The notes beneath the pieces are model-generated. The model did not search any database. It was not told the DNA's origin and was given only the letters and a program-made list of their open reading frames with translations. Below are positions 2,132 to 6,089 of a stretch of DNA of 6,089 nt, piece by piece (the first letter of the stretch is position 1; every line of letters begins with the position of its first letter). Source of the stretch: an uncultured Lachnospiraceae bacterium (GTDB lineage Bacteria > Bacillota_A > Clostridia > Lachnospirales > Lachnospiraceae). The stretch is from the NCBI GenBank assembly GCA_947175285.1, contig CAMWMM010000325.1, forward strand, positions 1 to 6,089, in the 5' to 3' direction. The translations under genes and the position numbers were made by a program.

Positions 2132-2266
2132 ATGAATGGAACAATGATTATAGGAATTGGTATTGGAATGCTTGTACTTGCCGTAATCTTATTGATAGTA
2201 TCAGTCGTATACCGGAAAACAACAGGAAAGAAGATTCGGGAAGAACTGAGAAATGAGTATGAATAA
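2132..2266 (+). CDS. 44-residue single-pass membrane protein
   Basis: A short gene with a near-ideal ribosome binding site (AAAGGAGGAGG at 2116-2126) just before ATG 2132 and a TAA stop at 2264-2266. The product has a glycine-rich hydrophobic helix at residues 5-27 (GIGIGM then leucine, isoleucine and valine-rich) followed by a basic-then-acidic tail from YRKTTGKKIREELRNEYE. The positive-inside rule puts the tail in the cytoplasm. I do not recognise a family. It lies between the kinase and the TPR fossil on the same strand, so it probably shares the kinase transcript and may be a small partner of the membrane kinase or TPR protein; that role is a guess. The GxGxG pattern could support helix packing. 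Its last codons, TAT GAA TAA, are also found just upstream of the intact TPR gene (3368-3376), which suggests that the right-hand copy of this gene was lost. Confidence 0.75.
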   Translation: MNGTMIIGIGIGMLVLAVILLIVSVVYRKTTGKKIREELRNEYE

Positions 2267-2353
2267 AATGCAAAAAAGAAGAAAAAGCTGCTGCCTTTTA
2301 TTATTGCGGCAGCAGTGGCGCTTATTATCCGCATAGTGGATATCGCTATCTAT
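2258..2353 (+). pseudogene. Truncated remnant of a second TPR-protein gene (leader and TM segment)
   Basis: The 19-base string starting at 2258 matches 3368-3386 with one difference. From 2279 to 2353 one frame encodes 25 residues that align without gaps to the membrane anchor of the TPR protein (its codons at 3450-3524): KKKLLPFI.., AAVAL.., then IV.I.IY, with 17 of 25 identical by my count. About 50 bp that would hold the ribosome binding site, start codon and cytoplasmic tail are missing between the two matching blocks. Similarity stops abruptly after TAT 2351-2353, and the downstream frame soon becomes unrelated. The remnant therefore lacks a start and all TPRs and cannot make the protein. 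It overlaps the end of the minus-strand gene and contains that gene's stop codon and terminator. Confidence 0.8.
2272..2315 (-). terminator. Rho-independent terminator of the Rpn-like gene
   Basis: Read on the minus strand: CTGCTGCC (2315-2308), a 12-nt loop, GGCAGCAG (2295-2288), giving a perfect 8-bp GC-rich stem. It is followed by CTTTTTCTTCTTTTTT (2287-2272). The stem begins about 30 nt after the stop codon of the 2346-3086 gene. On the plus strand the same bases are the fossil Lys-rich and Ala-rich membrane-anchor codons, so the T-tract is the antisense of a run of lysine codons. Confidence 0.8.
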
Positions 2354-2528
2354 CCAAGCGGGTGTTGGCAGGCTCGGATTTTAAATCGAATGGAATGCCA
2401 TTTTCTGTCAACAGAGATTTCAGGTAATCAATCTGCGGCAAATAATATTCAGCATCCTCCTTTTTGGTGCGTTCAATGATTTCAGCGGAGCTTGTACCAC
2501 ATAAATTTAAAAGTCCTTCACAAACCAT
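2346..2528 (-). CDS. Internal in-frame small protein: C-terminal 60 residues of the Rpn-like gene
   Basis: Within the Rpn-like gene, Met187 (ATG at 2528-2526) is preceded on the minus strand by a textbook AAAGGAG (2543-2537) with an 8-nt spacer, better than the site of the full-length start. Translation from it gives a separate 60-residue protein, MVCEGLLNLCGTSS... to ...TRLDR, that equals the C-terminal helical domain. E. coli rpn genes are known to make such C-terminal small proteins from internal starts, and these inhibit the full-length nuclease toxin. The same arrangement is inferred here by analogy. Expression is not shown by the sequence alone, but a Shine-Dalgarno this good at this spacing inside a gene is unlikely to be incidental. 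Confidence 0.6.
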   Translation of the reverse strand: MVCEGLLNLCGTSSAEIIERTKKEDAEYYLPQIDYLKSLLTENGIPFDLKSEPANTRLDR

Positions 2529-3086
2529 AGTCTTGTCTCCTTTCGTTTTTTTGAAGTTGGCAGTAGATACTTGATGCAGGTATTTGATGTAAATTTCCTG
2601 TTCCTGATGTAATTTATAGTCATTGGTAAGACGGTTGACAAGAGCAGTATCCTGCAGATTGTCAGTCAGACAGTGCAGATATAAATTATCTTCTGGAGAA
2701 AGTTCTTTTGTAACGATAATTTGTATATGAAAAGTCTCTTTATTGATATAATACACGCCATCGGAGATTTTTGCAACAGGTATTTTTCGGTCCTGTTTGA
2801 GATGCTTCATCAGTTTACGCGGATAGTGACAGCTTAAAAGCGTCAGGCTGACATCGAGACTGGAGTATTGATACCTGTGAGAAAGGTGCTCTGATTTACC
2901 CATCTGCGCAATCAGAAGCCCTGCATATCCGATGGTCTTATAATACGAGTCAATCCGATAGCTGTTTTTACCGAGCGGATATTCGGATATGTATTCGAGA
3001 ATATGAGAATAGTCTATCAGTTCAATTTGAAAAGCGCAGGAAGCGGCTTCATGCCAGTTGACGCGGCGTTTAGATGTAAGAGACAT
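2346..3086 (-). CDS. Rpn-like (PD-(D/E)XK family) protein, probably with deleted nuclease core
   Basis: A 246-residue protein starting at ATG 3086-3084 behind GAAAGG with an 8-nt spacer. From memory of the family, it belongs to the Rpn-like / PD-(D/E)XK group common in Lachnospiraceae: N-terminal RRVNWHEAASCAFQIEL (residues 7-23), GKNSYRID (39-46), SYYKTIGYAGLLI (47-59), ELSPEDNLYLHCL, then a C-terminal MVCEGLLNL.GTSSAEIIERT segment (from 187). In full-length relatives as I recall them, about 30 residues carrying the ExK half of the active site (a FEIK-like motif) separate the RID aspartate from SYYKT. Here RID46 joins S47 directly, and no ExK is visible there. The gene is therefore probably catalytically dead, although the frame is intact. 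It opposes its neighbours, has its own promoter and terminator, and sits between the two halves of a duplicated unit, as expected of an acquired cassette. The last residues (PANTRLDR) may be altered by the junction with the fossil. Confidence 0.8.
   Translation of the reverse strand: MSLTSKRRVNWHEAASCAFQIELIDYSHILEYISEYPLGKNSYRIDSYYKTIGYAGLLIAQMGKSEHLSHRYQYSSLDVSLTLLSCHYPRKLMKHLKQDRKIPVAKISDGVYYINKETFHIQIIVTKELSPEDNLYLHCLTDNLQDTALVNRLTNDYKLHQEQEIYIKYLHQVSTANFKKTKGDKTMVCEGLLNLCGTSSAEIIERTKKEDAEYYLPQIDYLKSLLTENGIPFDLKSEPANTRLDR
2537..2543 (-). promoter_or_regulatory. Internal Shine-Dalgarno of the Rpn C-terminal protein
   Basis: AAAGGAG read on the minus strand, 8 nt before the in-frame ATG at 2528-2526. 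It encodes part of the KKTKGDKT stretch of the long protein. This site decides the internal start. Confidence 0.65.
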
Positions 3087-3195
3087 ACAATATACCTTTC
3101 GTAGTAGAAAGCCTTATGCTGACGGCTTATATAGATTGTAGAATTGATAATAAGATATTAGAACCTAAGTTGCTATATAAATATCAGATAAAGAA

Positions 3196-3365: not shown

Positions 3366-3407
3366 AATATGAATAAAATACAAAAAGGCAAAGGAGAAAA
3401 CGAACTA

Positions 3408-4964
3408 ATGAACGAAGAAACGACAGACATAACAAAGCTGGAAACTAAAAAGAAAAAAACACTACCCTTTATCGTTGTAGCAGCAGTAGCGCTCACTGCT
3501 CTCATAGTGGGTATCAGCATCTACAACACCCCAGCGAACCGTGTGCAGAGACAGTTGGATTTAGGTAATAAATATCTGGAAGAAGAGAATTATGAGCAGG
3601 CAGCGCTTGCCTTTGAAGAAGTCATTGCGATTGATGAGCGCTGTATGGAAGCTTACGTGGGCGGTTTGGAAGCGTATCTCGGAGCAGGAGATATGGACGG
3701 CGCGCAGGATTTCTATGACAGAACGCTTGCGATGCTTTCCGGCTTGAATGAGGATTTCCTTGCTGAAAACATGGACTATGCGGTGGAATTGTACTTAGCA
3801 GCAGAGAAAGTCTATGGTGAAGACCGGGATAAGGCAGCGCAGGTACTGGAAGATGCATACACAGTAACAGGCGAGGATGCCCGGATAAAGGACAAGCTTG
3901 TTGAGAATTATATTGAAATTGGGAAAAAAGAAACACAGGATGGTTCCTATGAGGATGCGCTTGCTGTCTATGACAGACTCTTAGAACTGGATAATACGAA
4001 TCCGGACACCATAAGCGGTTTATGCGAATGCCTGAACAAATACATAGATATCCTGATGGAAGCAGGACGGTATGATGAAATCCGTGCCCTTGCAGACAAA
4101 TATAAAGATGTAGCAGTAAATGTGGACTTTGATGGTATTCTTGCGCAGATAGAGAAGCGGAAGACATGGGTCGATATTTCACCGGAACTTTTTACGTTTC
4201 AGATTGCAGGATATGATCTGTGGGAAAATCATACGGAGGAGGTGATGGACGCGCTGCGCTCGCTTGCGGTCAATGAAGAGATTGAGCGTAGAAGTGGGTG
4301 GACTATTGAGAACTTATTCACAGAAGAGGGTGATAAGATTACGCATACGTATAGCGATAGTTTAATTAATAATGATATTGGCATACGCCAACCGGTTGAC
4401 TGGGATACCGCGGGAAAGGATGGATACATAAGCTATCAGGGAGAGCGGAAAACAAATGAAAAAACGTATAGAAATTTGATTATCGGTCAATGGAGTGCGG
4501 GCGCAAAATGGGCCGGTGGCGAAAGAGAGGAGACGATAGATTTTGATAAATACATACATTGCCCTGTGGGAAAAACAGCGGAGGAATGGTATTCCCTGAT
4601 CGGGAGAGAGCAGATTGTGAGCAGGGGGCAGGAAGCGGATGCAATGTTTGCCGATAGCCAGGCATGGCGGTTTCAGACAGAGTGGGGAGAAGGCTATTAT
4701 GAGGAGATGACATTACACGGTCAAAATGTGAGCCTTCTTGCAATTGACTGCTCCGCGGAGAAAGGAGAAAAGCAGATCTTTTCATTATGCGTAGAGATGG
4801 ACGAAAATGGACAGGTAGATGCGCTCTTTGTCTACACAGGAAATTGTTATGCGTGGGATGAGAGTGGTGTCACATCTAGTAAAATCACTCAAACCCTTGT
4901 TGAAACCTCAGTGCGGATTGATGTTGATACCGATGTTTTTCACATCTTTGAAAATGACAGATGA
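3408..4964 (+). CDS. Membrane-anchored TPR protein with unrecognised C-terminal domain
   Basis: A 518-residue protein if started at ATG 3408, which has AAAGGAG at 3390-3396. The earlier in-frame ATG at 3369 would add 13 residues but has no ribosome binding site and overlaps the relic of the 44-aa gene's end. A short acidic cytoplasmic tail (MNEETTDITKLE), a Lys4 stretch and one hydrophobic helix (about residues 19-39) form a signal anchor; there is no lipobox cysteine. The bulk is then outside the membrane. TPR-like pairs follow: about 43-112 (LDLGNKYLEEENYEQAALAFEEVIAID, then EAYLGAGDMDGAQDFYDRTL) and about 163-232 (IEIGKKETQDGSYEDALAVYDRLLELD, then ILMEAGRYDEIRALADKYK). The remaining roughly 265 residues are Trp/Tyr-rich and look like a globular beta-containing domain that I cannot assign. 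Function is unknown; protein-protein scaffolding at the cell surface is likely. It ends 119 bp before the TadZ-like gene, which has its own promoter. Confidence 0.88.
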   Translation: MNEETTDITKLETKKKKTLPFIVVAAVALTALIVGISIYNTPANRVQRQLDLGNKYLEEENYEQAALAFEEVIAIDERCMEAYVGGLEAYLGAGDMDGAQDFYDRTLAMLSGLNEDFLAENMDYAVELYLAAEKVYGEDRDKAAQVLEDAYTVTGEDARIKDKLVENYIEIGKKETQDGSYEDALAVYDRLLELDNTNPDTISGLCECLNKYIDILMEAGRYDEIRALADKYKDVAVNVDFDGILAQIEKRKTWVDISPELFTFQIAGYDLWENHTEEVMDALRSLAVNEEIERRSGWTIENLFTEEGDKITHTYSDSLINNDIGIRQPVDWDTAGKDGYISYQGERKTNEKTYRNLIIGQWSAGAKWAGGEREETIDFDKYIHCPVGKTAEEWYSLIGREQIVSRGQEADAMFADSQAWRFQTEWGEGYYEEMTLHGQNVSLLAIDCSAEKGEKQIFSLCVEMDENGQVDALFVYTGNCYAWDESGVTSSKITQTLVETSVRIDVDTDVFHIFENDR

Positions 4965-5083: not shown

Positions 5084-6089
5084 ATGTGGATTAAAGCAGT
5101 TTATTGTACAAAAGATGTAATTTATGCAGAACGCCTTATCGCATTTTTTGATAAAGAATATGGCAATAAAATAGAATTAAACACCTGTGATTCTATAGAG
5201 TCACTTTTTGATTTTTTTAAAAATTATCAGACGGATATGGTGCTCTTTGGAGAAGAATTTGAAAAAGAAGCAATGAGCAGAAGCAGAGATATTCCCTGTA
5301 CCTGTGCGTTTATGACAGAACAGTTTTATGAATCGCAAAGTAAAGAACTGCCCCGGATAGATAAATACCAAAGAGGGGACAGTATCTATAAAGATATTTT
5401 GGACGCCTATGCGGCGGGGGGAAAAGTAAAACACATTCGGACGACAGGTGCGGAAAGCGGCGGACAGAAAGTATACGTCTTTACTTCTGCGTGCGGCGGC
5501 AGCGGAACGACAACGACTGCCAGAGCATACGCTAGAAAATGTGCAGCTTATGAAAAAGTACTTTATCTGGATTTTGGCTTGTTTAGCGATATTAAAGTGA
5601 CAGAGGGCAATGAGCATGGAATGGACGAAATTATCCTTGCACTCAAAAGCCGGAGAAATATTCTGCCGCTTAAACTGATGAGTGCCGTTGCAAGTATGGC
5701 GGACCGTGTTTATACATATGCGCCATGCAGTGATATGGTGAGTATGCTTGAGCTAAATGCGCAGGATGCCCATAATCTGGTAAACGGTATTACGGCGCTT
5801 TCCGAATATCAGAAAATCATCATTGATATAGGAAGTTCTGTTTCTGATAAAGAGATAGCGTTTATGAAATGTGCGGATTTTATCATATGTGTTGTTGATG
5901 AAAGTGAAATCGGGGCAAGAAAATATGAAAAGTTCTGTGAATTTTTAGAAAATGCAGGGAAAAAAGAGCAAATGCGGATTCTGCGGAAGATGCTCGTATT
6001 TAGAAATAAAGTAAAGCAGGACTATAATAACGACTCGTGGCAGTTTAAAAATGAAGTGACAGGCTGGGCGCCTTACGTTTCCGTAGACT
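5084..6089 (+). CDS. TadZ/CpaE-like MinD/ParA-family protein (3' partial)
   Basis: The frame is open from ATG 5084 through the right edge (335 complete codons). Residues 1 to about 110 resemble a degenerate response-regulator-like domain ending in a KYQRGDSIYKDIL stretch that I associate with clostridial TadZ proteins. From about 128 a MinD/ParA-type fold follows: YVFTSACGGSGTTTTARAYA (131-150) replaces the deviant Walker A, YLDFG (D163) matches the switch region, and KIIIDIGSS (D248) matches Walker B. The signature lysine is Cys137 and the P-loop lysine is Thr142, so ATP hydrolysis is doubtful. TadZ/CpaE proteins place Tad (Flp) pilus or secretion machinery at a site in the cell and act with the TadA ATPase. 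Such genes normally precede tadA, tadB and tadC, which may lie beyond the window. It is the first gene of a transcript from its own promoter. An alternative is another MinD-like positioning protein; the N-terminal domain favours TadZ. Confidence 0.78.
   Translation, partial: MWIKAVYCTKDVIYAERLIAFFDKEYGNKIELNTCDSIESLFDFFKNYQTDMVLFGEEFEKEAMSRSRDIPCTCAFMTEQFYESQSKELPRIDKYQRGDSIYKDILDAYAAGGKVKHIRTTGAESGGQKVYVFTSACGGSGTTTTARAYARKCAAYEKVLYLDFGLFSDIKVTEGNEHGMDEIILALKSRRNILPLKLMSAVASMADRVYTYAPCSDMVSMLELNAQDAHNLVNGITALSEYQKIIIDIGSSVSDKEIAFMKCADFIICVVDESEIGARKYEKFCEFLENAGKKEQMRILRKMLVFRNKVKQDYNNDSWQFKNEVTGWAPYVSVD
5187..5204 (+). promoter_or_regulatory. Third TCTATAGA box, within an 18-bp near-palindrome in the coding region
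   Basis: GTGAT-TCTATAGA-GTCAC: TCTATAGA (5192-5199) flanked by GTGA and TCAC arms, with one mismatched pair. It lies about 140 bp downstream of the expected start point, inside codons for residues 35-41 of the TadZ-like protein (CDSIESL). It shares its core with the two boxes upstream of the promoter, so it could be an auxiliary operator. Confidence 0.45.

Follow-up and report, generated by a model that had tools for sequence, protein, structure and literature searches.

The locus and its long reading frame

The window analysed here is a stretch of 6,089 nucleotides (nt) from an uncultured Lachnospiraceae bacterium (assembly GCA_947175285.1, contig CAMWMM010000325.1). On its minus strand lies a gene of a nuclease family whose long reading frame, L' (L in relatives with an intact nuclease), appears to contain a second, shorter gene for the C-terminal product S, equipped with a promoter and a Shine-Dalgarno (SD) site of its own. 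Among the few source names of family proteins that we saw, all read 'hypothetical protein'. The features of the gene, in the direction of transcription, are as follows.

3095..3099, minus strand: AAAGG, a moderate SD site of the long form, read from the sequence (computed pairing -7.6 kcal/mol)
2346..3086, minus strand: long reading frame L', 246 amino acids (aa), a nuclease family gene that has lost the active-site E-x-K to an in-frame deletion (about 38 residues)
2946..2954, minus strand: deletion junction ATTGACTCG, placed by comparison with the DNA of relatives
2748..2776, minus strand: TTGCAA-N17-TATTAT, a sigma-A-like promoter embedded in the coding region and recognised by its conservation across the family
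2713..2720, minus strand: ATTATCGT, a conserved element 3' of the -10 box, nearly fixed at silent positions in 55 aligned genes
2537..2543, minus strand: internal SD site AAAGGAG (-12.9 kcal/mol, spacer to the ATG 8 nt)
2346..2528, minus strand: short product S, 60 aa, MVCEGLLNLCGTSS...YLKSLLTENGIPFDL..., without extra heptads
2272..2315, minus strand: candidate terminator of S, an 8-bp CUGCUGCC/GGCAGCAG hairpin with a 12-nt loop and a U-rich tail; weak, z -1.55

The predicted fold of the long protein aligns best with PD-(D/E)XK nucleases, and the family looks like a nuclease of this type in a model built on 127 sequences (predicted local distance difference test score, pLDDT, 85; predicted template modelling score 0.74), which replaced a poor model on 41 close homologues (pLDDT 55). 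Foldseek against pdb gave no match at E<=0.001, the best being MspJI at 0.033, and a PDB sequence search returned no match. The D/E/K residues are present in 55 of the 56 unbroken copies that lie away from contig edges.

The C-terminal part is modelled as one short and one long helix. The segment from YYxPKI to YLKSLL varies in length by sevens only, being 1 mod 7 in all 67 S copies that could be matched (of 77; the other 10 fell outside the search pattern) and in all 116 matched proteins (of 120). Length steps of seven are expected of any coiled coil. Copies within one genome might have been expected to carry different numbers of heptads so as to stay orthogonal, but this found no support: equal lengths are not avoided (the genome of each locus being assigned by hand).

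E71 and K73 are among the roughly 38 residues that the window protein, compared with its homologues, has lost without a change of reading frame. Two relatives (L004 and L005) have ATTGA[C/T] in their DNA on either side of the segment absent from the window copy, which suggests that it was lost between short direct repeats. Other in-frame deletions spanning the same active-site motif are seen in P0017 and L054. By sequence, the window's long form is nuclease-dead. The frame nevertheless stays open after the deletion to its normal end, and the promoter, SD site and S all match the family pattern.

The internal start and its promoter

The sequence-only reading had placed AAAGGAG 8 nt before an in-frame ATG at residue 187 and predicted a 60-residue product. 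These coordinates are confirmed: the internal start is Met187 of the window frame (codon 2528-2526, minus strand). Computed pairing with the anti-SD sequence is -12.9 kcal/mol here, as against -7.6 for the annotated start and -3.1 and +0.6 for the two other in-frame ATGs. We aligned 55 homologous frames that carry both domains in one frame, among them the window, L054 and the contig-edge copy L001, with L053 left out for its run of N. The residue at the internal start is Met in 55/55, and an anti-SD energy of -9 kcal/mol or lower precedes it in every frame, compared with 2 of 144 other in-frame ATGs.

Conservation extends to silent positions, as the codon-level check proposed with the sequence-only reading had called for. 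The SD core is observed in 51 of 55 frames where synonymous recoding expects 12.7, and the remaining four are AAGGGAG-type variants. At the glycine codon five positions before the Met, GGA is used in 52 of 54 cases and GGG in 2, while other conserved glycine columns use GGA in 100 of 311 (Fisher 2.5e-20); relatedness is not modelled in this test, nor in the SD and promoter counts across family genes. When the genes are clustered at 75% aa identity, GGA at this glycine is found in 23 of the resulting 25 and the promoter likewise in 23 of 25. The residues encoding the SD site are mostly K-G-(D/E), elsewhere E-G-E, K-G-R or, in another register, K-E-G (L021). The SD site is retained despite a change of residues ('AKEGVH' in L021, 'TEGESP' in four frames) and also where the residues after the Met are swapped (MFEEMM and MESPLAYEW types). 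A chance SD site is ruled out by the family-wide conservation of SD and Met when set against other ATGs and synonymous recoding, and S is very probably made from this internal start.

A variant beginning of S, M(L)FEEMM in place of MVCEGLLNL, occurs with the same SD region and the coil kept in L040, L044-L048, L051, L056, L116, L120, L121 and L170.

The promoter inside the nuclease coding region follows a family motif, TTGNAA-N17-TATNAT, in which the spacer varies freely and the third base of the codon is fixed even at codons for H, Y, D or N. Of the 55 genes, 51 have the exact motif here, where synonymous recoding expects 3.65; the remaining four differ at one position, and the motif occurs nowhere else in 46,965 coding-strand bases. 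In a scan of synonymous rates (186 columns, mean observed/expected 1.0, standard deviation 0.34) the lowest three-column windows fall at codons -90 to -75, counted from the Met, and the SD window (-9 to -5) comes next, with isolated low columns also at -100 and -232. A plain promoter scan of the region found no excess over shuffles, so that it is conservation that carries the promoter claim. As the 77 loci had been fetched by DNA patterns, the patterns themselves were considered as a source of the synonymous constraint; this was rejected, since KE[TI]Fx[TIA]QII spans codons -76 to -68 and the promoter boxes fall outside it. Among five full copies that came from a protein-profile genome search alone, the promoter is exact in two, has one mismatch in two and finds no match in one (L168). 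Together these data point to a separate promoter for the small gene. The nearby element ATTATCGT is a possible operator; in two trimmed stand-alone copies, L075 and L119, sequence is retained roughly as far as this element, and then the gap follows. The hairpin at 2272..2315 was not among the terminators reported by a terminator scan.

Could these signals be by-products of constraint on the protein? Conservation is indeed high at the residues K-G-(D/E)-x-x-M and V-E-K...G-V-Y-H-I, which might be kept for the fold of the long protein, with SD and promoter following from them. Such an account would leave the constraint at silent positions unexplained (promoters and SD cores each 51 of 55, against 3.65 and 12.7 expected), the SD site is kept with altered residues, and the promoter persists in L119, whose nuclease frame is broken. 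It is largely contradicted, and we regard it as most improbable.

Stand-alone S units and the proposed role of S

The active-site loss in the long form, the small gene's own promoter and the stand-alone units described here all go beyond the sequence-only reading. Units consisting of promoter, SD and an intact S are found at five sites, and in each the homology to the nearest full gene stops a short way upstream of the -35 box: 14 nt in L059, 35 in L060, 27 in L075, 13 in L119 and 20 in L170. In L075 and L119 most of the stretch from ATTATCGTCA to the SD site is gone as well. L119 has a nuclease frame that is out of phase and no longer leads into S, while its promoter, SD and S are intact. L178 (40 nt) and L180 (13 nt) have the upstream sequence of L075 and L119, S being lost in both; the remnants L183 (homology stops 32 nt upstream of the -35 box) and L184 (4 nt) are likewise without S. 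L108 has an N-terminal piece followed by a jump to the promoter, with a stop inside its S. Extra S copies lie 3' of full genes in L018 and L022.

To count copies, 209 were de-duplicated by sequence to 117, and 20 loci that were doubtful or belonged to a sister family were set aside, as were weak matches below 25 bits, leaving 96 rows: 6 at contig edges, 55 with a full nuclease bearing D/E/K and 35 with a broken or absent nuclease. The script found S in 54 of the 55 full copies; the other, L002, is masked by Ns, yet its ATG and SD are present. Several rows were corrected by hand. L018_7516 is intact, its match having been split by heptads, and L053 was dropped for its Ns. L061 and L118 were dropped as possible halves of one interrupted gene, both lying near contig ends in G017, where the break in a family gene seems to fall after the nuclease part and ahead of the internal SD (end of L061, start of L118). 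L014 and L121 keep an open S behind SD variants that the script had overlooked. With these corrections, the S start is present in 56 of 56 copies with a full nuclease region, and 22 of 31 copies with a broken or absent nuclease keep an open S; the nine that do not are the fragment L008, L072, L076, L108, L122, L178, L180, L184 and L189. This asymmetry is suggestive only, given the shortness of S and the fact that a C-terminal search supplied some of the fragments.

The ratio of non-synonymous to synonymous rates (dN/dS) of S in broken, partial or stand-alone copies, measured against the nearest full copy, is 0.04-0.35 in 21 of 23 comparisons, a set that includes L018_8167 (really intact) and the edge copy L001. 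The outliers L056 and L120 stand at 0.66 and 0.41 with few changes. For the window S the value is 0.21, in a pair that includes the relative's own branch.

These figures bear on whether the locus is simply a decaying nuclease pseudogene, in which S has no present role in the window genome and the SD and promoter are a legacy of functional ancestors. The deletion of the active site fits that picture, as do other copies reduced to remnants that lack an intact S (L072, L076, L122, L178, L180 and L184, for instance). Against this stand the window's open frame beyond the deletion, the fidelity of its promoter, SD and S to the family pattern, and its dN/dS, with the qualification on branches just given. 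Decay seems to us rather doubtful as the explanation.

We propose instead that L would act as a PD-(D/E)XK-type nuclease with a C-terminal coiled coil, and that S would be its C-terminal part alone: a separate transcript would begin at the promoter within the nuclease coding region, with translation of S from the strong internal SD and ATG. S would bind the matching coil of L and keep the nuclease inactive, as RpnS does to RpnL. In the window copy, in-frame deletion of the active site would leave a dead L' with an intact S unit. On this reading, to which we assign a probability of roughly 0.7, the two-product locus is a toxin-antitoxin gene-within-a-gene; by analogy, S is probably the antitoxin of L, and the window copy is likely a locus with a solitary antitoxin and a dead long form. 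Production of S in the cell, toxicity of L, and binding and inhibition of L by S are what we infer, together with any role in phage defence.

A different role for S is conceivable, namely as a structural partner that joins L by way of the coiled coil and that L requires for its activity, comparable to Cas11d, the complementary subunit, within Cas10d. An internal start and a matching coil would suit any partner of L, and the S start is present in all full L copies; moreover, Cas11d within Cas10d (type I-D CRISPR), likewise a small C-terminal subunit with an internal start, is a precedent cited in PMC10327210. However, stand-alone S units with their own promoter exist without an attached nuclease and mostly look constrained, and there are copies, the window's among them, that retain S although L is inactivated. 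A mere subunit would be expected to decay along with the enzyme it served. A structural role is therefore unlikely.

Relation to Rpn, surroundings and significance

The proposed arrangement resembles that of the E. coli rpn genes, in which a nuclease is accompanied by an internal promoter and an internal start, by four-residue repeats and by an RpnS that inhibits it, with further RpnS genes lying separately downstream (Zhong et al. 2023, preprint, PMC10327210). The same study reports that a Clostridioides difficile rpn gene, too, gives rise to an RpnS in E. coli. Consequently the extension of intragenic antitoxins to Firmicutes, which the sequence-only reading had offered as new, is not. In the PMC literature this was the sole paper found on an intragenic antitoxin of this kind, subscription papers lying outside the search.

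The likeness to Rpn drawn by the sequence-only reading stands for the layout but not for the sequence. Alike are the PD-(D/E)XK nuclease core with its catalytic residues, the internal promoter, the internal start with its SD, the short C-terminal product, the variable number of repeats in the C-terminal helix and the short-gene copies outside the long gene. Three models were considered: TIGR01784, PF04754 and PF12784, the last of which we take to be an Rpn-type model. No Rpn model matched the window protein at E<=1 in family scans, and none matched 41 homologues (alignment A2) in NCBIfam at E<=1, in Pfam at E<=0.03 or, among the 25 of 38 families listed, in Pfam at E<=1. Profile comparison with hhalign of alignments A5 and A2 against nine Rpn proteins of the same genus, a small set, gave probabilities of 0.4 and 0.1 (E 0.15 and 0.45), that is, no detectable similarity. 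Rpn genes proper are common in this genus, with TIGR01784 over its cut-off in 39 of 41 genomes; among those read, an internal Met preceded by an SD is likewise seen in L198, L199 and L201. Further differences concern the active-site motif (D..ExK, against D..ExQ in the nine Rpn proteins), the repeats (seven-residue heptads, against four-residue units) and the C-terminal part (a short and a long helix predicted, against a three-helix bundle in RpnA-S). The stand-alone S units of our family carry the internal promoter. Judged from its sequence, the locus would work like Rpn, while membership of Rpn is not supported.

A sister family of nuclease-like proteins in Lachnospiraceae (L065-L071, L073, L074, L077 and L190-L194) shares the N-terminal domain and the D..ExK motif. 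Of 14 distinct copies read, 13 have a Met at the corresponding position with an SD of -9 kcal/mol or lower ahead of it: 9 copies from a set selected for Met and 4 of 5 others, the fifth (L194) having Val. It differs in that four window-family members are only 25-29% identical to L068 and several of its members have four-residue C-terminal repeats (EGRE, EKGM); the window-family type of promoter was not at the site in the 9 open reading frames read. One member scores 35.2 bits to TIGR01784, under the cut-off of 52.1. The sister family is a candidate for another two-product family, and its matching Met and SD, together with this sub-threshold match, make a remote kinship of the window family with Rpn possible.

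The gene's neighbours in the window, two of them with tetratricopeptide repeats (TPR), are these.

15-2063: Ser/Thr kinase-TPR gene
3369-4964: TPR gene
5084-6088: TadZ-like ATPase gene

Diverged direct repeats flank the nuclease gene (2276-2352/3447-3523, 2082-2106/3332-3356 and 2258-2276/3368-3386), and a diverged copy of the start of the 3369 TPR gene (71% over 77 nt) lies at the 3' end of the nuclease gene, as if the latter sat in a truncated tandem TPR paralogue. In several relatives (G015:C7, G010:C6, G013:C10 and G031:C26) arrays of TPR paralogues are interleaved with nuclease-gene copies in the opposite orientation. Window positions 2132-2266 encode a 44-aa hydrophobic peptide, a membrane peptide by eye, with AAAGGAGGAGG upstream and no family match over the cut-off. 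No fixed neighbourhood emerged among the 68 loci surveyed, a TPR neighbour being common to 9. PHROGs gave hits at E 0.097 and 0.8 only and PADLOC no match. Phage, plasmid and viral-contig searches for relatives returned none, and hence no phage-borne S.

We tentatively suggest that the family may represent a second lineage of gene-within-gene toxin-antitoxin nucleases, with no detectable sequence kinship to Rpn, whose inner antitoxin gene, complete with promoter, SD and coil protein, would repeatedly have been copied out and kept as stand-alone immunity genes; the window would show the opposite end of this process, the toxin having been deleted in place and the antitoxin kept. If true, intragenic antitoxins would be a recurrent design for PD-(D/E)XK nucleases and not peculiar to Rpn. 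Two-product genes might then be spotted from evidence at the nucleotide level, such as a promoter embedded in coding sequence and orphan units that start at that promoter. The orphan units would also lead to a testable prediction, namely that they confer immunity to a relative's toxin.
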